A stretch of DNA of 64,000 nt, taken from Methanothrix soehngenii GP6. Its GTDB lineage: Archaea > Halobacteriota > Methanosarcinia > Methanotrichales > Methanotrichaceae. The DNA lies in the NCBI RefSeq assembly GCF_000204415.1, contig NC_015416.1, positions 992,001-1,056,000 on the forward strand, in the 5' to 3' direction. Shown here piece after piece: positions 4,160 through 50,090 of the stretch. A program made the translations under genes and the position numbers. Positions within the stretch are counted from its first letter, which is position 1. Each line of letters opens with the position of its first letter. A model generated the notes under the pieces. The model was not told where the DNA came from, ran no database searches, and saw only the letters and a list, made by a program, of their open reading frames with translations.

Positions 4160-4167
4160 AAAAGAAA

Positions 4168-4326
4168 GGCTCTTCGCTGAATTATGTGGGTCAGGCACTG
4201 CAGTGGTTTTAGTCTCTGTTCCTCTGCGCCTCTGTGGTTGGGTCAGGATCGCGGTTCACCACAGAAGGCGCAAAAGACACAGAGAATTTGTGATTCAAGT
4301 CTATCCGTGCTAAATAGCGAGGAGCC
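4168..4326. repeat. Inverted-repeat element type A, copy 1
   Basis: 159 bp non-coding element. Its ends GGCTCTTCGCT (4168-4178) and AGCGAGGAGCC (4316-4326) are inverted repeats with one mismatch. A large interrupted palindrome occupies 4214-4284 (CTCTG..CTCTGCGCC..CTGTGG pairing with CCACAG..GGCGC..CACAGAG). Copies 2 and 3 are at 4481-4637 and 49932-50090. The structure resembles a MITE or REP-like element. Confidence 0.85.
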
Positions 4327-4377
4327 TGGTTATACTCGTCGTAGATAGGTTTGATTGGATTACAGATAACGGATTTT

Positions 4378-4477
4378 AACCACAAAGAGCACAAAGATCA
4401 CAAAGGCCTCGCAAAGGTTAATCCAGTTCTTGATAGCCCAATAATCATTTGGTGCGGTCTTTGTGTGCTTTGTGGTT
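4378..4477. repeat. Inverted-repeat element between the two type A copies
   Basis: About 100 bp with 20-nt terminal inverted repeats: AACCACAAAGAGCACAAAGA (4378-4397) against TCTTTGTGTGCTTTGTGGTT (4458-4477), 18 of 20 pairing. It lies exactly between type A copies 1 and 2, so 4160-4640 is a stack of three palindromic elements. No protein-coding gene is supported here. Confidence 0.75.
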
Positions 4478-4480
4478 TAT

Positions 4481-4637
4481 GGCTCTTCGCTGAATTATGT
4501 GGGTCGGGCCCGGCAGTGGTTATAGTCTCTGTTCCTCTGCGCCTCTGTGGTTGGGTCAGGATCGCGGTTCACCCCAGCTGCAAAAGGATACAGAGAACTC
4601 CTGATTCAAGTTCGCCCATACCGAATGGCGAGGAGCC
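4481..4637. repeat. Inverted-repeat element type A, copy 2
   Basis: 157 bp, same orientation as copy 1 and highly similar in its first 90 bases. The ends are GGCTCTTCGCT and GGCGAGGAGCC. The right half has diverged more: the 3' arm of the inner palindrome reads CCCCAGCTGCAAAAGGATACAGAG, which weakens the hairpin. Confidence 0.85.
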
Positions 4638-4671
4638 AAAAGAAAAATAGCTGATATGGGGTTATCTGTCC

Positions 4672-21745: not shown

Positions 21746-22213
21746 TTGAAATCAATCTTGAAGGCAACCTGTCTAGCCGCTGCATTGATGATCCTCGCCT
21801 GCAGCGCGATGGCATCGGTGGTCGTAAATGAGATAGAGCTGAACCCTCCGGAGGGGGGAGCGGAATGGATCGAGCTTTTTAACTCCGGAAACGAGAGCGT
21901 CGACATAAGCAGCTGGACGGCCATCATCACCGATGGCAGCTGGAAGGGAGAATTCTCCCCTGTACCCCTGGGTACGATTCTTCCCGCAGGAGGATTCTAT
22001 GTCCTGGATGGCCAGGAATCCTGGAACCATACTGACGGAGGATACTGCACCCTCTATAGTGCATCTGGTGAGGAGGTAGACAGGACCGCCCTTCGCCTGG
22101 ATAGCTTGGGAAACGACTTTACCTATGGCAGGAATCCGGACGGATACGATACGAACACCGATGGCGACTGGGGTCTGGCTTCTGCCACCCGTGGTGCGAC
22201 CAATGTGCGCTGA
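21746..22213 (+). CDS. Secreted lamin-tail-domain (LTD) protein 1
   Basis: 155 residues. The signal peptide (ATCLAAALMILACSAMAS) is followed by a single LTD immunoglobulin-like fold: VVVNEIELNPPEGGAEWIEL, SVDISSWTAI, LPAGGFYVLDG, FTYGRNPDG. The start is TTG 21746 with a strong GGAGGAGAT site 5 bases upstream. LTD modules in prokaryotes are usually extracellular, often with nucleases or adhesins; here the module stands alone. A paralogue follows 35 bp downstream. Confidence 0.85.
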   Translation: MKSILKATCLAAALMILACSAMASVVVNEIELNPPEGGAEWIELFNSGNESVDISSWTAIITDGSWKGEFSPVPLGTILPAGGFYVLDGQESWNHTDGGYCTLYSASGEEVDRTALRLDSLGNDFTYGRNPDGYDTNTDGDWGLASATRGATNVR

Positions 22214-22248: not shown

Positions 22249-22767
22249 TTGGAATCTAAGGATAAATCAAAATGGAGGATGACGACACGTCCGGCATCAA
22301 GAGGCGGCATCAGAGCGTCTCTGGCCTTTTTATGCCTGCTGGCATTCTCAGCCTCTGGAATCTGCGACGTGGTCATAAACGAGATTGAACTGAGCGCGCC
22401 CCATAACGAAACTGTGTGGGTGGAGCTCTACAATGCGGGTGATGACCCTGTGGACCTTACCGGCTGGACGGTGCAGATCGAAGACGGGGCCTGGAAGGGT
22501 ATCATTCCTCTGCAGGGAATCATAGATCCCCTGGGATTCAAGGTGGCGAAGGGCAAGGACGCCTGGGCGACAACTGGCAACGGTACAGTCTATCTGTATG
22601 ATGCCCTTGGAGAGAATATGGATCGAGTATATCCCCAGAGCGACCAGAGCCACTCTCACTTCGCTTATGGCCGGATCCCGGACGGCAGGAGGAGGGGCAC
22701 CAGTGCAGACTTCGCCTTCCTGAGGGCAAGCATCGGCATGTCCAATGGCAGAGAGGTGCAAAAATAA
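22249..22767 (+). CDS. Secreted lamin-tail-domain (LTD) protein 2
   Basis: 172 residues, paralogous to the preceding gene (shared VVINEIEL, DLTGWTVQIEDGAWKG, FAYGRIPDGRRRG). Its N-terminal extension is longer and basic before the hydrophobic signal core ASLAFLCLLAFSASGIC; the Cys at the end of the core could suit lipidation but is not a proven lipobox. I use the TTG 22249 start after GAGGGATC. The tandem pair probably arose by duplication and was kept with divergent surfaces. Confidence 0.82.
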   Translation: MESKDKSKWRMTTRPASRGGIRASLAFLCLLAFSASGICDVVINEIELSAPHNETVWVELYNAGDDPVDLTGWTVQIEDGAWKGIIPLQGIIDPLGFKVAKGKDAWATTGNGTVYLYDALGENMDRVYPQSDQSHSHFAYGRIPDGRRRGTSADFAFLRASIGMSNGREVQK

Positions 22768-22820
22768 ATATAATCGAGATCAGGGCGGGAGACGAAAATA
22801 GCAGGGGATTTGAGAAAGGA

Positions 22821-23014
22821 GGGGCCTCGCTGTTTCATATGGGTGAGATGGAAATCTGAAGCCTAATCCAAGTAATCGCCAAAATGCCGAGATATCGCCA
22901 TTTATGAATAATCTCAATACCAATCTTCCATCAGGTCGGAATTCCAAGGGGGAGTCATACCCGGAGAATGAAAATCGCTATCCTGAGGTTACCCATATGA
23001 AACAGCGAAGAGCT
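22821..23014. repeat. Inverted-repeat element type B, copy 1 (long form)
   Basis: 194 bp. The terminal inverted repeat TCGCTGTTTCATATGGGT (18 bp) is exact against ACCCATATGAAACAGCGA at the right end. The right outer end AGCGAAGAGCT matches the end of the type A elements. The middle contains about 90 extra bases absent from copy 2. It lies 49 bp beyond the 3' end of the CARDB repeat gene. Confidence 0.85.
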
Positions 23015-23063
23015 AAAAAAAGAGATGATAGGGCCAGGATCCAATCTCGATTCGGCCACATTC

Positions 23064-24641
23064 TCAGGGATGGTTCACGCTGATGGGCTTGAGGAAGATG
23101 TTGTTTGCCTCATCGCTTTCCGCCACAACTCCGCCGGAATCGACCAAAACCTTGGTATTGATGTTAGCATACCAGCTGGGGTAGCCGTCATAGGTGCAAG
23201 TCAATATCTTTCCGCCTCGTGCCACCAATCCATCCACTTCCCAGCTGCATCCCAGATTCCGGTAGTTCTCCCCGGGCCACCACTGGACACTGAACGGACC
23301 GGATGAGCCGGTGCCCTGGTTGTAAACTCCAAGCCTCACAGTTACCGGCGATCCCTGAACTGGCGTTTCGGGATTCAGTGAGAACTCGCTGACAAATAGG
23401 TCAGGAGATCCCGACGCCGACCCAGGTCCAACCGGTCCCGGCGATCCTGCGCCAGGCTTGCTCACGCTGATGGGCTTGAGGAAGATGTTGTTTGCCTCAT
23501 CGCTTTCCGCCACAACTCCGCCGGAGTCGACCAAAACCTTGGTATTGATGTTAGCATACCAGCTGGGGTAGCCGTCATAGGTGCAAGTCAATATCTTTCC
23601 GCCTCGTGCCACCAATCCATCCACTTCCCAGCTGCATCCCAGATTCCGGTAGTTCTCCCCGGGCCACCACTGGACACTGAACGGACCGGATGAGCCGGTG
23701 CCCTGGTTGTAAACTCCAAGCCTCACAGTTACCGGAGATCCCTGAACTGGCGTTTCGGGATTCAGTGAGAACTCGCTGACAAATAGGTCAGGAGAGCCAG
23801 ACGCCGACCCAGGTCCAACCGGTCCCGGCGATCCTGCGCCAGGCTTGCTCACGCTGATGGGCTTGAGGAAGATGTTGTTTGCCTCATCGCTTTCCGCCAC
23901 AACTCCGCCGGAGTCGACCAAAACCTTGGTATTGATGTTAGCATACCAGCTGGGGTAGCCGTCGTAGGTGCAAGTCAATATCTTTCCGCCTCGTGCCACC
24001 AATCCATCCACTTCCCAGCTGCATCCCAGATTCCGGTAGTTTTCACCAGGCCACCACTGGACACTGAACGGACCGGATGAGCCGGTGCCCTGGTTGTAAA
24101 CTCCAAGCCTCACAGTTACCGGAGATCCCTGAACTGGCGTTTCGGGATTCAGTGAGAACTCGCTGACAAATAGGTCAGGAGAGCCAGACGCCGACCCAGG
24201 TCCAACCGGTCCCGGCGATCCTGCGCCAGGCTTGCTCACGCTGATGGGCTTGAGGAAGATGTTGTTTGCCTCATCGCTTTCCGCCACAACTCCGCCGGAG
24301 TCGACCAAAACCTTGGTATTGATGTTAGCATACCAGCTGGGGTAGCCGTCGTAGGTGCAAGTCAATATCTTTCCGCCTCGTGCCACCAATCCATCCACTT
24401 CCCAGCTGCATCCCAGATTCCGGTAGTTTTCACCAGGCCACCACTGGACACTGAACGGACCGGATGAGCCGGTGCCCTGGTTGTAAACTCCAAGCCTCAC
24501 AGTTACCGGAGATCCCTGAACTGGCGTTTCGGGATTCAGTGAGAACTCGCTGACAAATAGGTCAGGAGCTGCCTCGGCCATAAACATTGAGAGCCAAGCC
24601 ACCAGGCCTATAACCAGAAAATATCTATTTAGTCCTTTCAT
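23064..24641 (-). CDS. Secreted protein made of four near-identical CARDB repeats
   Basis: 525 residues. The signal peptide (YFLVIGLVAWLSMFMAEA) is followed by four CARDB-type beta-sandwich modules, each starting PDLFVSEFSLNPETPVQG. Each contains two cysteines (LGCSWEVDG, LTCTYDGYP), likely a disulfide, and ends with DEANNIFLKPISV. Modules are joined by a Gly/Pro/Ser linker. There is no C-terminal anchor, so it is probably released or bound non-covalently to the sheath. ATG 24641 is used because GGTGAT lies directly upstream; the frame extends 4 codons further to a TTG. It is bracketed by type B elements at 22821-23014 and 24893-24996. Confidence 0.85.
   Translation of the reverse strand: MKGLNRYFLVIGLVAWLSMFMAEAAPDLFVSEFSLNPETPVQGSPVTVRLGVYNQGTGSSGPFSVQWWPGENYRNLGCSWEVDGLVARGGKILTCTYDGYPSWYANINTKVLVDSGGVVAESDEANNIFLKPISVSKPGAGSPGPVGPGSASGSPDLFVSEFSLNPETPVQGSPVTVRLGVYNQGTGSSGPFSVQWWPGENYRNLGCSWEVDGLVARGGKILTCTYDGYPSWYANINTKVLVDSGGVVAESDEANNIFLKPISVSKPGAGSPGPVGPGSASGSPDLFVSEFSLNPETPVQGSPVTVRLGVYNQGTGSSGPFSVQWWPGENYRNLGCSWEVDGLVARGGKILTCTYDGYPSWYANINTKVLVDSGGVVAESDEANNIFLKPISVSKPGAGSPGPVGPGSASGSPDLFVSEFSLNPETPVQGSPVTVRLGVYNQGTGSSGPFSVQWWPGENYRNLGCSWEVDGLVARGGKILTCTYDGYPSWYANINTKVLVDSGGVVAESDEANNIFLKPISVNHP
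23074..24600 (-). repeat. Four tandem 387-bp coding repeats
   Basis: The repeat unit is 387 bp (129 codons); the same phase recurs at 23461, 23848 and 24235. Copies differ at only a handful of bases, for example ggcgatcc versus ggagatcc and cgtcatagg versus cgtcgtagg, which is evidence of recent expansion or gene conversion. Such an array is prone to copy-number change. Confidence 0.95.
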
Positions 24642-24892
24642 ATTTATCACCAAAGATTGCTCAGTCGAATGTCCATGTCATGCTGTTCGCTTATCTTAAT
24701 CTGACAACATCGCTCCGACCACGACGACATACTAACAGGTTCCTGATCGAGAGATGATTGAAGTGCGGCTTCAGTTTCAGTTAGATTATTGCTCTGAATT
24801 GCCCAGGAGCATTCCTTAAAATGTTATCTTGATGATCATTTATTAATGTTTTGCACTGAAGCGCCGGAGCCTTCGGAGAAGGCTCAATTTCT

Positions 24893-24996
24893 GGTTCCTC
24901 ACTGTTTTGTATGGATGAGATGGAAATCTGAAGCCTAATCCAATCAAGAATGAAAATCGTTATCCTGAGGTTACCCATATGAAACAGCGAAGAGCC
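24893..24996. repeat. Inverted-repeat element type B, copy 2 (short form)
   Basis: 104 bp. Left end GGTTCCTCACTGTTTTGTATGGAT, in pieces, mirrors the right end ACCCATATGAAAC and AGCGAAGAGCC with a few mismatches. The internal block GAGATGGAAATCTGAAGCC is shared with copy 1 in the same orientation. It lies about 250 bp upstream of the CARDB gene start. Confidence 0.82.
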
Positions 24997-25023
24997 AGCA
25001 CGATGGTTTTACGGTTTCGGCTC

Positions 25024-25881
25024 TCATTCTATCAACAGGGTATAGGCCATATCCCTCTTGAATCTCTTTGTATGTTCGCTCTTGTTGATTATATTTCCCT
25101 GGACATCCCTTTGGGAGATGCTGATGGTGTGCGTCTTGTCTGCACTTAGAGTGAAGCTGGCAACGCCATCAATAGACCCATCTCCCACATCGCTGCTGTA
25201 GAAGGCCCCGTCCAGATAGACGTCATATCCTTTTATCCTCTCGCTCTTTATCGTCACCATTGCCCTTCCAGTGGAAATGGTCCCTACATCCAATGGCGAG
25301 ACTGAAGCGTTATCGGACTTTGCGACCAGGTCCAAGATCAGGGCATTACCAGGCTCGCTCTTCCGAGCTGCTATCATGAAGTATCGCCCCTCTTCCTCTG
25401 CCCTCAGCCTGAGGAGATGATATCCTTCAAGGAGATTGAAGCTCCAGCGATCTCGTGTGCCGCTGGCATAAGAGATCAAATAGACGTCCACTTCGCCATA
25501 CTCGGGCATATAAATGATTATATCCACATCCTCTCCCTGGATGGCTTTGAGGTAGTGGCTCCACTGCAAGTCATTTCGAATCCAGAGCTGGCATGAGAAT
25601 GGCAGGGATGCGAGCTCCGAGAAGTTCAGAAGATGCGATCCGATATTAAGCGAAGGAGTCTCGGCATCGCCCGGATTGAAGGCCAGAGGAGCAGATAGCT
25701 TTGTGGCCATTTTCTCATCCGCCCCTGTCTCATCGCTGACCCAAGGGGCTTCTGTCCAGCTATAATTGGACTTGGGCAAGGCTTGAGCCGATGCAGCCAG
25801 GAGCAGGAGCAGGATCACAATCATCAGACCGATCAATTCTCGAAGGGGGATGGAGATTGGATGCAGGCGCAAGCGTCCCAT
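25024..25881 (-). CDS. Secreted or membrane-anchored protein of unknown function
   Basis: 285 residues. An N-terminal hydrophobic segment (LIGLMIVILLLLLAASAQA) acts as signal peptide or anchor. A beta-rich ectodomain follows, with the later part (about 205-285) reading like a PEGA-type module (GYDVYLDGAFYSSDVGDG, ADKTHTISISQRD). The start lies 3 bp after the argS stop, so it is in the argS operon although functionally unrelated. I do not recognise a specific family. Confidence 0.68.
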   Translation of the reverse strand: MGRLRLHPISIPLRELIGLMIVILLLLLAASAQALPKSNYSWTEAPWVSDETGADEKMATKLSAPLAFNPGDAETPSLNIGSHLLNFSELASLPFSCQLWIRNDLQWSHYLKAIQGEDVDIIIYMPEYGEVDVYLISYASGTRDRWSFNLLEGYHLLRLRAEEEGRYFMIAARKSEPGNALILDLVAKSDNASVSPLDVGTISTGRAMVTIKSERIKGYDVYLDGAFYSSDVGDGSIDGVASFTLSADKTHTISISQRDVQGNIINKSEHTKRFKRDMAYTLLIE

Positions 25882-25884
25882 GGC

Positions 25885-27567
25885 TTACATCGTCTCCAGG
25901 GCGGATATGCCCAGGGTCTCCAGGGTGGTTCGCAGGGCGTTTCTGGCCGCTTTAGCCAGAGCCAGCCTGGCATCCCGAAGCTCAAAAGATGCATCCAGCA
26001 CTGGGCTGTAGCGGTAGAAGAGGTTGAAGCTCTCCGCCAGCTCGCGGGCATATGTGGCCAGATGATGGGGCTTTAGCTCGCATGCTGCCCTGTCGATGAC
26101 CAGATCGAACTGGGCGATCTTCTTGATCAGGGCGACCTCATAATCGCTTACCAGCAGATCAGCCTGGAACTTTTCACTCTGTTCGCCTTTGCGAAGGATG
26201 CTGCAGGCCCGGGCATGGGAGTACTGGATGAAGGGGGCTGACAGCTTCTCGAAGTCTAAGGCCTGCTTCCAGTCGAAGGTGGTGGCCTTGTCCGCGGATA
26301 CCTTTACCACATCGTAGCGCACTGCACCGCTGGCTACCTGGCGGGCCACCTCCTTTAAAAACTCCGGGCTCTCATCAGGCCGGCGGGCCCTAACCTCTTC
26401 CATAGCCTGTTTTTCCACCTCATCCAATAGCTCGTCCGCGGAGATGAACTTGCCCTTGCGGGTGCTCATGGAGCCTGTAGGCAGAGAGACGAACTCGAAT
26501 ATCACCACCTCCGGCTCGCGGACGCCTAAAAGGCCCAAAGCCACTCGCAGCTGTCCGGAGACCAATTTATGGTCCGCTCCAAGGATATCCACAGAGCGAT
26601 CGGAGTTGGCCGACTTCCAGCGGTGGTAGGCCAGGTCGCGAGTGATGTATAGCGATGTCCCATTGGCTCTTTTCAGGACCATCTTCTTCTCAAAGCCATA
26701 ATCATTCAGGTCCAGCTGAAGAGATCCCTCATCCCAGGCGACAAGGCCGGTCTTCTCCAGGCTTTCTACGATCTCGGCCACGCTGCCATCCCGCACGAAC
26801 TCCGACTCCCAGTGGTAGCTGTCGTGGCAGATGTTCATCCTCTGCAAGGTCTGTTCTATTCCGCCGATAGCATAACGAACGGCAGACTGGACCTTGGCGG
26901 TGACCTCCGGATCGCCTGCCTCATAGAGCTGGATCACCCGGTCTGCCTCCTCCCGGATGGCGGGATTGCTCTCCATCTCCTTGTTTGCGGCAATGTAGAC
27001 CCGAGCGATGGCATGGTCCGGCTTGCTGCCGTCCAGCTGGAAGTGATCCAATCCCACCACCACCATCGCCTCCTGGCGGCCCATGTCGTTGACGTAGTAC
27101 TGGGCGTCCACAGTGCAGCCCGCCCGGCGCAGTATTCTGACCAGGGTATCGCCGATCACTGAGTTTCTGATATGGCCCACATGGAGCGGCCCGTCCGGAT
27201 TGGCGGAGGTGTGCTCCACTATGACCTTCTCGTTCATCCTCCCAGTCCAGGCATTGTCTGCCAGGGCCTGGTTCAAGACAGCATTCAGGAACGCTCGGTT
27301 CATGAAGAAGTTGAGGTAGGGGCCGGCAAGCTCCACCTTTTCTACATAGCGGAATTCATGGGGGATCGCCTGGTGGATCTCTCCAGCTATGGCGGCCGGG
27401 CTCTTCTTGAGGACCGGTGCCAGGCGGAAGGCCACTGAAGAGGCCAGATCGGCATGGGGGGTAAGCTCAAGCCCCAGGCTGTTTATACCCTCCTCTGGCG
27501 CGAAGCCACAGCGATCGAGGGCGCTTTTCAGCAGGCCCTCGACCTCGCTCATAAAATCAAGAAACAT
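25885..27567 (-). CDS. argS: Arginine--tRNA ligase
   Basis: 560-residue class I synthetase. The HIGH motif occurs as HVGH in ANPDGPLHVGHIRNSVIGD. The N-terminal Add-1 domain and the C-terminal anticodon-binding helical bundle with SAPFIQYSHARACSILRK are present; the KMSKS site is degenerate (STRKGKFIS), normal for ArgRS. GGTG lies directly upstream of ATG 27567. A secreted protein gene follows 3 bp downstream. Confidence 0.96.
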   Translation of the reverse strand: MFLDFMSEVEGLLKSALDRCGFAPEEGINSLGLELTPHADLASSVAFRLAPVLKKSPAAIAGEIHQAIPHEFRYVEKVELAGPYLNFFMNRAFLNAVLNQALADNAWTGRMNEKVIVEHTSANPDGPLHVGHIRNSVIGDTLVRILRRAGCTVDAQYYVNDMGRQEAMVVVGLDHFQLDGSKPDHAIARVYIAANKEMESNPAIREEADRVIQLYEAGDPEVTAKVQSAVRYAIGGIEQTLQRMNICHDSYHWESEFVRDGSVAEIVESLEKTGLVAWDEGSLQLDLNDYGFEKKMVLKRANGTSLYITRDLAYHRWKSANSDRSVDILGADHKLVSGQLRVALGLLGVREPEVVIFEFVSLPTGSMSTRKGKFISADELLDEVEKQAMEEVRARRPDESPEFLKEVARQVASGAVRYDVVKVSADKATTFDWKQALDFEKLSAPFIQYSHARACSILRKGEQSEKFQADLLVSDYEVALIKKIAQFDLVIDRAACELKPHHLATYARELAESFNLFYRYSPVLDASFELRDARLALAKAARNALRTTLETLGISALETM

Positions 27568-27869: not shown

Positions 27870-29180
27870 TTAACCCGTATCTAGAAAAGGAATGAACATA
27901 AAGAATGCATCGAGTAGCGTCTTTTGAGGTCTTCCAAAGACTCCGGCTTTCTTCAGCGCAGAGAGCTTTATCTGCTCTTTGATTCCAAGTTCCTCTAACT
28001 GCTTTTTTCTATGAGTCTTGAGGCTTGCTGAATAGAAATTTTCTATAGGATTGTTTGTAGCTGGAGCATTATCGACAAAGTAAAACGCTGTAAGATTTGG
28101 CCAAAGCTCTTCGATTTTCGCCAGTCTTTTTCTTACAGATATCATGAACGAGTCAGATTGCATCTTTAAAATTTTAAAATTATTTAAAGCTTCATAATAA
28201 TCTCTTTGTTTAAGGTTTTTGTTTTCCCTTCTGCGTTTCAACTCCAAATCTCGGACGAATTTATGAAATGCGTTCTTTGCCTCCTTAATCCAGGACTTAT
28301 ATTCCTTGTCGCTTCTCTGTTTCATGGTTTTCTCTTCTTCGATCAAGCAGGAAAGAAACTCTATCTCAGGCTCACGATCATAAAATATATTAAGCAATCT
28401 GTATTTAATTAATTCCTGTTCAATGCTCGTTTTTCGAGGAAAATCATTGACTATGAGCTTATTCAAATGGAGCAAACAGAATTGATGGATGACCTTATTA
28501 CCGAAAACTCTTTTAAAAATATCACTGTATCCTCGGTAGAGATCTGTGACAATAAATATCTGCTTTTGGGTATCAAGATTTCTTCGAAGGAAACTTTCGA
28601 TAGTATCGGCGTCTTTTGAATCATAAAGTTCATCCGCGATTACTTGCCTTGTTACCGAATCAAGGAGTGTCAAGCGATACTTTTGGTTTCGACCTGCCTT
28701 GGGATGTTGCTCATCATAATGCACAAACTGGATATTTTTGACCGGAGGGATATCCATCTCATCAATCGCGCACTGGACCATGTTCCGGATAGTATCTTTA
28801 TCCCGAGGATATAGATAGCCCATTATCGATTCTATCACTTCATAAGATACGTGGTTAAGCCTCAGACGAGTGCAGATTTCCGTGATAATCCCTAAGAAGT
28901 CTGCCTTTAGATTGACCCAGAAGTCTCGATTTTCTTCAGTTGACTTTCCGCAAGCGCCACATAAATATTTCCCGACGTTTGCCCCTCCGAGATGTCTCTT
29001 CTGGCAGGTGTTAAAACCATTATGGCTCATTGGATGGCCACATTCGGGACATAATGGCGGCACTATTTTCCGAAAAATACCGCTCGCAGTAAATTCAAAG
29101 TCGTTTGAGTAATCCTGGAAGATATTTGAAAGCATTTCACGATACGGAAAATTTATCAAGCTTAATTGCATCTCAGTCAT
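27870..29180 (-). CDS. DDE transposase with N-terminal zinc ribbon (possibly ISH6-like)
   Basis: 436 residues. An N-terminal zinc ribbon (CPECGHPM with CGACGKS) precedes a helix-turn-helix-like region and an RNase H-fold catalytic core. The DDE triad is visible as YDEQHP (first Asp), VTDLYRGY (second Asp) and NNPIENFYS (Glu). The length and architecture suggest the archaeal ISH6 group, but that assignment is tentative. The frame is full length, so the element may be active. Codon use is more AT-rich than in the neighbours, consistent with a mobile gene. Terminal inverted repeats were not found by eye. Confidence 0.85.
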   Translation of the reverse strand: MTEMQLSLINFPYREMLSNIFQDYSNDFEFTASGIFRKIVPPLCPECGHPMSHNGFNTCQKRHLGGANVGKYLCGACGKSTEENRDFWVNLKADFLGIITEICTRLRLNHVSYEVIESIMGYLYPRDKDTIRNMVQCAIDEMDIPPVKNIQFVHYDEQHPKAGRNQKYRLTLLDSVTRQVIADELYDSKDADTIESFLRRNLDTQKQIFIVTDLYRGYSDIFKRVFGNKVIHQFCLLHLNKLIVNDFPRKTSIEQELIKYRLLNIFYDREPEIEFLSCLIEEEKTMKQRSDKEYKSWIKEAKNAFHKFVRDLELKRRRENKNLKQRDYYEALNNFKILKMQSDSFMISVRKRLAKIEELWPNLTAFYFVDNAPATNNPIENFYSASLKTHRKKQLEELGIKEQIKLSALKKAGVFGRPQKTLLDAFFMFIPFLDTG

Positions 29181-29320
29181 TGTAGGGTCACACAGGGTAC
29201 ATGATTATCATAATATTAATAATTTGTGATAGAATGTGCCCTGCCTACATCACTTATTTAGGAGCTTGTGCCCAGGAAAGTATAATATCTCGGACTGTTT
29301 ACTCTAAAATGGGATTTGTA

Positions 29321-30544
29321 ATGAAATTCTTCGCAGTTTTTCTGATGATGCTGTTGTGCGCCCCAGCCCTTGCCTCGACGGAATCGAGCGGGGTTGAGGC
29401 CACCACAGCCGTGACTTTGCCTGTCGACTCTGTCACCGTTTATCCGGACGGCCTGATGGCAGTGAAGCGCATGGGAACCCTGGATACAACTGTCGGCGAG
29501 CATAAGTTCGTAATCAACATTCCTGATGCAGCCGACAAGAGCTCCATCCTCTTGAGCGTGAGCAATGCCAGCGTACAGAGAGTGGTTTATGACTCCAATC
29601 CCGTTTACGCTCTGAATATCTCTTCCTCGGGACCGCAGGACTTTGCGCTCAGCTATCTGATGCACAGTGCAGGCTTCTGGGAGCCCAGATACGATCTGCA
29701 TCTCGCCAATGATTCCGTTCTTCTGAATGCAAACGCCGTCGTCCGCAATCGTGGCGGAGAGGACCTGAAGAACGTGCGACTCAAGCTGGTGGCCGGACTG
29801 CCTCTTGCCGTCGAGCCGATATACAGGTCCGCACAAATCCAGCAGGCATATGCGGCCGAAGCAGCGTTAAACGAGGCTTTTGATCTGGCAGCTGCCCCAG
29901 AGGGCTCATCCTCAGGCGAACTGGAGACGCTCTACATCTTCGAGCTGGAGGGCAGAAAGGATCTGGCCATGGACAAGGAGATCGGATTCCCGCTCTTCCA
30001 AGAGAACGTACCTCTGGTCAGGGTCTACACCTGGAATGCCTACCTTCAGGAGGAGGGGCCTGCAGTGGAGGAGATCCGGGCCAATAACACCATGAAGAAC
30101 CCCTGGCCTTCCGGGACGGCGCTGCTCTACAGAAATGACGACTATGTCTCCACCATAGACATGCCCTACACTGCATCCGGGACCAATGCCACCCTTGTCA
30201 TCGGCCCGTCTGCGGATCTCAAGGTTACGAGAAAGCTGAAGGACTACAACGTCACGGAGAAGATCCGGGCCATCACGTCCAACGGACGGAATCATACCGT
30301 AAAAGAGACCACTGAGACCTGGACCTATCACCTCAAAGTCGAGAGCAATCTGGACCGTGCGGCCACTTTAGAGGCCACAGACAACCTGCCCCAGGAGGCG
30401 GAGATGATCGACGTCACCCCCAAACCCGCCGAGACCACGGCCACCAGCCTGAAATGGCGGCTACAGCTATTGGCGCGGCAGAAGACGGCCATCGACTACA
30501 GCTATCGAGTGGTAACGACGGAGAGCCTGGATGGTTCGTCCTAG
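29321..30544 (+). CDS. DUF4139 domain-containing secreted protein, paralogue 1
   Basis: 407 residues. The signal peptide (MKFFAVFLMMLLCAPALAS) precedes an N-terminal beta domain with TLPVDSVTVYPDGLMAVKR and a DUF4139 domain with YDLHLANDSVLLNANAVVRN, NRGGEDLKNVRLKLVAGLP and YIFELEGRKDLAMDKEIGFP. The open frame begins at 29201, but the signal peptide starts at ATG 29321. There is no C-terminal anchor. The family is extracellular and of unknown function. It is about two-thirds identical by eye to the gene at 32304-33530. Confidence 0.83.
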   Translation: MKFFAVFLMMLLCAPALASTESSGVEATTAVTLPVDSVTVYPDGLMAVKRMGTLDTTVGEHKFVINIPDAADKSSILLSVSNASVQRVVYDSNPVYALNISSSGPQDFALSYLMHSAGFWEPRYDLHLANDSVLLNANAVVRNRGGEDLKNVRLKLVAGLPLAVEPIYRSAQIQQAYAAEAALNEAFDLAAAPEGSSSGELETLYIFELEGRKDLAMDKEIGFPLFQENVPLVRVYTWNAYLQEEGPAVEEIRANNTMKNPWPSGTALLYRNDDYVSTIDMPYTASGTNATLVIGPSADLKVTRKLKDYNVTEKIRAITSNGRNHTVKETTETWTYHLKVESNLDRAATLEATDNLPQEAEMIDVTPKPAETTATSLKWRLQLLARQKTAIDYSYRVVTTESLDGSS

Positions 30545-32303: not shown

Positions 32304-33530
32304 ATGAAGCCCTATGCAATTATTCTAGTGCTGTTGTTATGCGTTCCTGCCTCGGCCTCGCAGGAGGCGAGCGAAGTCGAGGCCACAACCGCCATTACCC
32401 TGCCCGTGGATTCCGTCACCATCTATCCTGACGGCCTGATGGCAGTTAAAAGGACGGGACTTTTGGATGTGACCGAGGGAGCTCACAAGTTCGTGGTCAA
32501 TGTTCCGGATAAGGCCGATTTCGGCTCTGTCCTTCTCTCGGTGAGCAATGCCACCACCGATAGGGTGGTCTACGAGTCAGATCCCATCTATACCCTGAAC
32601 ATATCGTCCGCTGGATCGCAGAGATTCGATCTGAGCTACCTCATGTACAGCTCTGCCACCTGGAAGCCCATATACGACCTGCACCTCAGCGAGGATCAGG
32701 TGCTGGTGAAGTCCAATGCTGTGGTGAGCAACCGGGGAGGAGAGGACCTGAAGAACGTGCGCCTCAAGCTGGTGGCCGGTCTCTCTCCAGAGGTGCATGC
32801 CTATCCTGCTGCACCCAGAAGCGCAGGTGCGGCAGATGCCAAAATGGCGTATGCGATGGAAGAGGTGGCATATGAAGCCGCCCCGGATCTTCCGGCCACG
32901 GGCGAATTGGAGACCCTTTATATTTTCGAGCTGGAAGGACGAAAGGACCTGGCAATGGACAAGGAGATCGGATTCCCCCTCTTTGAGAAGGAGTCACCCC
33001 TGGTGAGGATCTATACCTGGGATGCCAGCCGGCAGTCTGAGGGTCCGGCAGATGAGGAGGTCCGTATCAATAACACCCTGGAAAATCCCTGGCCCGAGGG
33101 GAAGGCCATGCTCTACCGCAATGGCGAATATGTCTCCACCATCCAGATGCCTTATACTCCTGCCGGCACCAACGCCTCCATTGTGGTGGGCACCTCTGCC
33201 GATCTGAAGCTGGAGAAAAAGCTCTCCGACTATAACAAGACCGAAGAGATCAAAGCGATAAGCACGCCTGAGGGTAACCGCACCGTCAAGGAGATCAGAC
33301 AGGCCTGGACCTATCACCTTTCGATCAAGAGCAACCTGGACCGGACTGCAGATTTGGAGGTAACGGACACTGTTCCTCAGGAGGCGGTGATGATCTCAGT
33401 CTCCCCCGAGCCCGATGAGAGAACTGCCACCACCCTGAAGTGGAAGCTGGAGGTCATGCCCCGCCAGGAGATGTCAATCAACTACACCTATCAGGTGAAG
33501 ACGACAGAGAGTCTGGACAGAGAATACTAA
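32304..33530 (+). CDS. DUF4139 domain-containing secreted protein, paralogue 2
   Basis: 408 residues. Signal peptide at residues 1-19, then the same two-domain layout as the gene at 29321-30544, with shared blocks ITLPVDSVTIYPDGLMAVKR, NRGGEDLKNVRLKLVAGL, ELEGRKDLAMDKEIGFPLF and YLSTIQMPYTPAGTNAS-like stretch (YVSTIQMPYT). The central linker is different and Ala/Met-rich. GAGGTG is 6 bases before the ATG. A T-run at 33546-33551 may terminate it. Confidence 0.85.
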   Translation: MKPYAIILVLLLCVPASASQEASEVEATTAITLPVDSVTIYPDGLMAVKRTGLLDVTEGAHKFVVNVPDKADFGSVLLSVSNATTDRVVYESDPIYTLNISSAGSQRFDLSYLMYSSATWKPIYDLHLSEDQVLVKSNAVVSNRGGEDLKNVRLKLVAGLSPEVHAYPAAPRSAGAADAKMAYAMEEVAYEAAPDLPATGELETLYIFELEGRKDLAMDKEIGFPLFEKESPLVRIYTWDASRQSEGPADEEVRINNTLENPWPEGKAMLYRNGEYVSTIQMPYTPAGTNASIVVGTSADLKLEKKLSDYNKTEEIKAISTPEGNRTVKEIRQAWTYHLSIKSNLDRTADLEVTDTVPQEAVMISVSPEPDERTATTLKWKLEVMPRQEMSINYTYQVKTTESLDREY

Positions 33531-49931: not shown

Positions 49932-50090
49932 GGCTCTTCGCTGAATTATGTGGGTGAGGTCTGGCAGAGAATATAGCTTCTGTTCCTCTGCGTCTCTGTG
50001 GTTGGGTCAGTGCACCACGGTTCGCCACAGAGGCACAGAGACACAGAGAATCTCCAATTCAAATTTACCCATGCCAAATAGCGAGGAGCC
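49932..50090. repeat. Inverted-repeat element type A, copy 3
   Basis: 159 bp, same length as copy 1 at 4168-4326, with ends GGCTCTTCGCT and AGCGAGGAGCC. The inner palindrome is especially good: CCTCTGCGTCTCTGTGG pairs with CCACAGAGGCACAGAG. It sits 16 bp after the thioredoxin stop and may double as a transcript end structure. Confidence 0.87.

Follow-up and report, generated by a model that had tools for sequence, protein, structure and literature searches.

Composite transposition of MITEs is known in bacteria (PMC4133298, PMC3934969); therefore, movement of this kind is not new in itself. In Pseudomonas, the TIME-COMP elements are composites in which two Tn3-derived MITEs bound a core without transposase. 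The MITE copies are in direct or opposite orientation, the elements are of the Tn3 family with 5-bp duplications, and their transposition has been demonstrated with a trap plasmid (PMC4133298). The blaPER-1 region of Acinetobacter johnsonii is MITE-bounded, and a 5-bp duplication supports its composite transposition (PMC3934969). ISL3 is not mentioned in a review of prokaryotic MITEs (PMC10969869), and the literature that we searched contained no report of ISL3 MITEs in Methanothrix or of the type B element described below; this absence is weak evidence.

The locus compared here with these systems lies in a 64,000-nucleotide stretch of the Methanothrix soehngenii genome (C1:992001-1056000, hereafter the window; the genome has 3,026,645 bases in two contigs). 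A gene for a secreted-type protein with four CARDB domains is located between two type B elements, B1 and B2 (Table 1). The counts of elements given below are based on pattern searches, similarity searches and stretches of genome. The preliminary description of this DNA had placed two direct type B copies on the two sides of a four-repeat secreted gene, and its coordinates, copy number and orientation were correct. The unit from B1 to B2 (2176 bp) is close in size to TIME-COMP1 (2469 bp), and both consist of two MITEs that bound a transposase-less core. As in the blaPER-1 region, the acquired DNA is flanked by two copies of one MITE in direct orientation. In contrast to TIME-COMP, the B pair belongs to the ISL3 family, has no flanking duplication and is known from sequence alone; the 5-bp duplication of the blaPER-1 region likewise has no equivalent at B1 and B2.

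Table 1 Features of the window that are discussed in the text (positions are those of the window).
Feature	Position	Strand	Remark
Type A MITE pair (4168-4326, 4481-4637)	4168-4637		Composite duplication aaaagaaa at 4160-4167 and 4638-4645
LTD1, second lamin-tail-domain protein	21746-22213	+	Conserved neighbour
LTD2, lamin-tail-domain protein	22249-22767	+	Left flank of junction
Interval between convergent conserved genes LTD2 and u25024	22768-25023		2256 bp
B1, full-length type B MITE, 194 bp, ISL3-type terminal inverted repeats	22821-23014		Flanks agaaagga / aaaaaaag (4/8)
Secreted-type protein, 529 aa, four CARDB domains (PF07705)	23064-24653	-	Between B1 and B2
B2, type B MITE, 104 bp, about 90 bp deleted internally	24893-24996		Flanks caatttct / agcacgat (1/8)
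u25024, conserved protein of unknown function	25024-25881	-	Right flank of junction
argS, arginyl-tRNA synthetase	25885-27567	-	Conserved anchor
Single type A MITE	49932-50090		Flank match 6/8

B1 and B2 are in the same orientation, one on each side of the gene: B1 lies 49 bp past its stop codon and B2 lies 240 bp ahead of its start codon. Both ends are present in each copy. The left ends are GGggCCTCGCTGTTTCATATGGGT in B1 and GGTTCCTCaCTGTTTTGTATGGaT in B2; the right ends, read inwards, are aGCTCTTCGCTGTTTCATATGGGT in B1 and GGCTCTTCGCTGTTTCATATGGGT in B2. B2 is internally deleted, and the type B copies of relatives are mostly 181-208 bp long. Among the 104 sites shared by B1 and B2 there are 8 differences, mostly in the left terminal repeat, and the interiors are near-identical. 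The left end of B1 (22821-22844) and its right end form a perfect inverted repeat of 18 bp; the left end of B2 resembles the genus form, unlike that of B1. It is possible that one end of B1 has been corrected from the other. The whole type B sequence was found at only these two places in the 3.03 Mb genome, 2.1 kb apart. By our own, a posteriori arithmetic, the probability that two copies placed at random lie no more than 2.1 kb apart is about 0.0014. An Rfam scan of the 64-kb window gave no match; thus, the inverted repeats are not accounted for by a known RNA family.

The preliminary description had called the outermost 12 bases of type B identical to the start of type A. The type A end, GGCTCTTCGCTG, matches B2 exactly and B1 at 11 of 12 positions; thus, the identity is exact for B2 and not quite so for B1. 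Types A and B resemble each other beyond these 12 bases, in a terminal inverted repeat of about 24 bp. When the genome was searched with a degenerate 24-bp end common to both types, GGCTCYTCGCTGNNTYATRTGGGT, allowing up to three mismatches, 124 matches were obtained, whereas the reversed-pattern control gave 0. Therefore, the shared 24-bp ends are not due to chance. Three of the matched places belong to 1302-bp ISL3 elements; the genome contains three such intact elements, each with closely matching 24-bp ends and with an exact 8-bp target duplication (gtttattg, aaattcca and taatttag, respectively). Their transposases match PF01610 (E about 3e-76) and NF033550 (E 3e-101; 339 bits against a cut-off of 180 bits). 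In contrast to these insertion sequences, types A and B have no transposase and are mostly 104-208 bp in length, as MITE derivatives. Both occur as several dispersed copies. Type A copies are about 150-160 bp long, and many of them have exact 8-bp duplications. Type B is dispersed over more than a dozen places in the relative G011 and is also present in several other Methanothrix genomes. We read 15 complete type B copies from six relatives (G002, G005, G010, G011, G020 and G023): the flanking duplication is 8/8 in 12 of them and 7/8 in one. Because their ends match those of the intact ISL3 elements and because of the 8-bp duplications, types A and B classify on sequence features as MITEs of the ISL3 family. 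The duplication characterizes the family and is absent at B1 and B2 themselves. The elements belong to a known transposon family and are ordinary in kind. The shared ends and the duplication length suggest that types A and B are probably mobilised in trans by a resident ISL3 transposase. Thus, the earlier proposal that shared ends point to one mobilising enzyme is strongly supported, with the ISL3 family as that enzyme's family, and the three intact elements provide the genomic transposase with the same termini that it had advised looking for.

The protein encoded between B1 and B2 has a hydrophobic start, and its CARDB domains are encoded by tandem 387-bp units. The four units (23068-24528) are 97-98% identical at the DNA level over 300 bp, which suggests that they may have been recently amplified internally or homogenised. 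The GC content of the gene is 55.7%, as compared with 50.7% for the window. We found no second match to the protein in its own genome. Furthermore, the gene is absent from G024 (99% complete), which is the supported sister of this genome in an argS tree; on this tree, the distribution of the gene needs three changes. Homologues are present in three relatives (G006, G018 and G013) at other loci, and their proteins are 61-72% identical. A scan of GTDB genomes with the CARDB protein recovered only these same relatives. In G006 and G018, the gene sits between TPR genes and a helicase; these homologues also have several repeats, and the assemblies break inside the repeats. The G013 homologue is near a putative IS110-like transposase, so named by its appearance. 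To learn whether the CARDB gene had moved within the chromosome, we searched the genome for the TPR gene that neighbours it in relatives; this was absent at E <= 1e-40. B elements were searched for beside the three homologues and none was found, so the CARDB gene does not need them. Relatives that keep the gene without elements had been named as a refutation of the cassette idea. Such relatives do exist, with the gene at other loci and with the 61-72% identical proteins described above; they count against an obligatory cassette but do not speak against a B-bounded gain of the gene in the present lineage.

The gene order argS-u25024, convergent to LTD2-LTD1, is conserved in 12 relatives. The stop-to-stop gap in these relatives is 73-223 bp (median 93.5), as compared with 2256 bp in the window. 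If exactly B1 to B2 is excised, 80 bp are left, which is within the intergenic length of the relatives. No B element was found at the junction in the 12 readable relatives. Thus, length and gene order, rather than a comparison of single bases, identify the empty target site in 12 relatives. When the 80-bp remainder was compared by eye with the relatives' intergenic DNA, there was no obvious similarity, and therefore the exact breakpoint is set by length only. Because the 12 relatives are empty and the 80-bp remainder fits, a gain with B elements at this site is supported. The junction is permissive, because two further genomes carry different insertions there: G012 has a 532-codon ATPase-like gene instead (L154 1244-2842), and in G024 two contigs end (C11 end and C16 start; L155 and L130) inside another, insertion-sequence-like insertion. 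Owing to this insertion and contig break, the state of the G024 junction is read from the absence of the gene. The B bracket thus coincides with a lineage-specific gain of the CARDB gene.

Several other repeats and genes are present in the window. The ORF directly upstream of argS (27870-29180) is IS66-type transposase-like (weak Pfam match, E 4.5e-06). Two related genes lie close together at 29201-30544 and 32304-33530, with 72-75% DNA identity over repeated stretches; in G003, G008 and G022, a homologue of these genes adjoins u25024, replacing the LTD genes. An exact 300-bp direct repeat (1-300 and 871-1170) lies in or near the ORF at 46-1671.

A composite that is moved by an ISL3 transposase is expected to have an 8-bp duplication on its outer sides. 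B1 and B2 are two MITE copies that bound a core. However, no composite duplication was found around them: the outer flanks, agaaagga on the left and agcacgat on the right, match at 4/8, and random 8-mers of the window reach at least 4/8 about 11% of the time. Neither B1 (4/8) nor B2 (1/8) has a duplication of its own, and the inner flanks agree at 2/8. In addition, the B-gene-B unit is present once in the genome and no second copy is known. Simple decay is a poor reason for the missing duplications because the interiors of B1 and B2 are near-identical; recombination or rearrangement is a likely cause. Movement of the B pair as a single composite transposon, whose signature is missing, is a candidate only. 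The cassette proposed in the preliminary description accordingly divides into two parts: gain at this site is supported by the 12 empty relatives and the 80-bp remainder, and composite movement is not.

The type A dimers of the same genome are a positive comparison. Like the B pair, they are direct copies with ISL3-type MITE ends that bound other DNA. In contrast, their core is a 127-bp non-coding segment, their outer duplications are 7/8 to 8/8, and they occur several times. The pair in Table 1 has an exact 8/8 outer duplication and no individual duplications; its flank is A-rich, and the match of aaaagaaa is thus somewhat less telling than it looks. Related dimers at C1:412214-412581 and C1:2771310-2771667 (L186 415-782 and L194 711-1068) have 7/8 outer duplications. 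The 127-bp inner segment is common to the dimers (93-95% identical) and has inverted repeats of its own (AACCACAAAGAGCACAAAGA / TCTTTGTGTGCTTTGTGGTTT). The dimers resemble one composite MITE that has been mobile repeatedly. At another locus (L021), the inner segment adjoins one A copy and the other side differs. Because of these outer duplications and the common segment, ISL3-MITE composites are probably mobile, and composites with such ends have probably moved as units in this genome.

How did the CARDB gene come to lie between two B elements? One possibility, second in likelihood to the reading preferred below, is that the gene arrived by another route, such as homologous or illegitimate recombination, and that two B MITEs inserted later, one of them perhaps having hopped locally from the other; in that case, the bracket would be incidental. 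The other insertions accepted by the junction (G012 and G024), the B-free homologues and the absence of a composite duplication all agree with such independent events. However, B1 and B2 have no duplications of their own either, even with near-identical interiors. Moreover, the 3 Mb of the genome contain only two B copies, which are unlikely (about 0.001) to bracket a single inserted gene by chance, and outside B1 and B2 there is nothing beyond the ancestral intergenic length. It is improbable that the CARDB gene came in on a circular or linear piece that also carried one B element and that underwent recombination with a B element resident at the junction, no transposase acting on the gene. 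Direct B copies with near-identical interiors, different left ends and internal lengths and unmatched flanks would suit this exchange, and since type B is widespread in the genus, both partners could have pre-existed. Yet its simple version predicts matching outer and inner flanks, whereas 4/8 and 2/8 were observed, and the 12 readable relatives have no B at the junction. Very improbable, and already disfavoured, is the idea that B1 and B2 are non-mobile, paired regulatory or terminator inverted repeats that serve the gene. Their positions after the stop codon and before the start codon would fit this role; in contrast, dispersed type B copies in other genomes have exact target duplications and are not accompanied by the CARDB gene, and CARDB homologues exist without B. 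An effect of B1 and B2 on expression would be compatible with a mobile origin.

The most likely reading, to which we give an even chance, is that the CARDB gene was gained here as a B-bounded segment (B1-gene-B2). In its favour are the three intact ISL3 transposases, the 8-bp duplications of type B copies in relatives, the empty junction and the type A dimers; in addition, the only two B copies in the genome are 2.1 kb apart and the gene is absent from G024. Against it stand the missing 8-bp duplications, the B-free homologues, the single occurrence of the unit, a breakpoint set by length and the indirect reading of the G024 junction. We infer that the gene was brought in by the B copies. By this B-bounded gain, two copies of a MITE that occurs across the genus, and that a transposase of the ISL3 family mobilises in trans, would have bounded a segment comprising the CARDB gene, about 240 bp upstream and 49 bp downstream. 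The segment would have entered this lineage at the junction of two convergent genes, either by ISL3 transposition via the two outermost ends or by recombination between B elements, the latter being the exchange with a resident B described above. The missing duplications point to one or more events of recombination or rearrangement, either as the gene was gained or later. With B copies in direct orientation, the gene could now be lost or amplified by recombination; neither was observed. A more elaborate proposal seems doubtful to us: that a composite bounded by ISL3-type MITEs brings a secreted CARDB-repeat gene, itself amplifying internally, to convergent junctions where Methanothrix chromosomes can safely accept it, the direct MITE copies then allowing amplification or loss.

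Short repeats of this genome are now tied to a named transposase family, whose ends and 8-bp signature are testable. The locus is also a clear case, in an acetate-using methanogen, of MITEs coinciding with the gain of a gene whose product is secreted or on the surface, at a junction that is otherwise conserved. If the CARDB-carrying composite is real, a methanogen would have a MITE composite that carries a gene. If composite movement is true, it would explain the spread of non-autonomous gene units without their own transposase in archaea.
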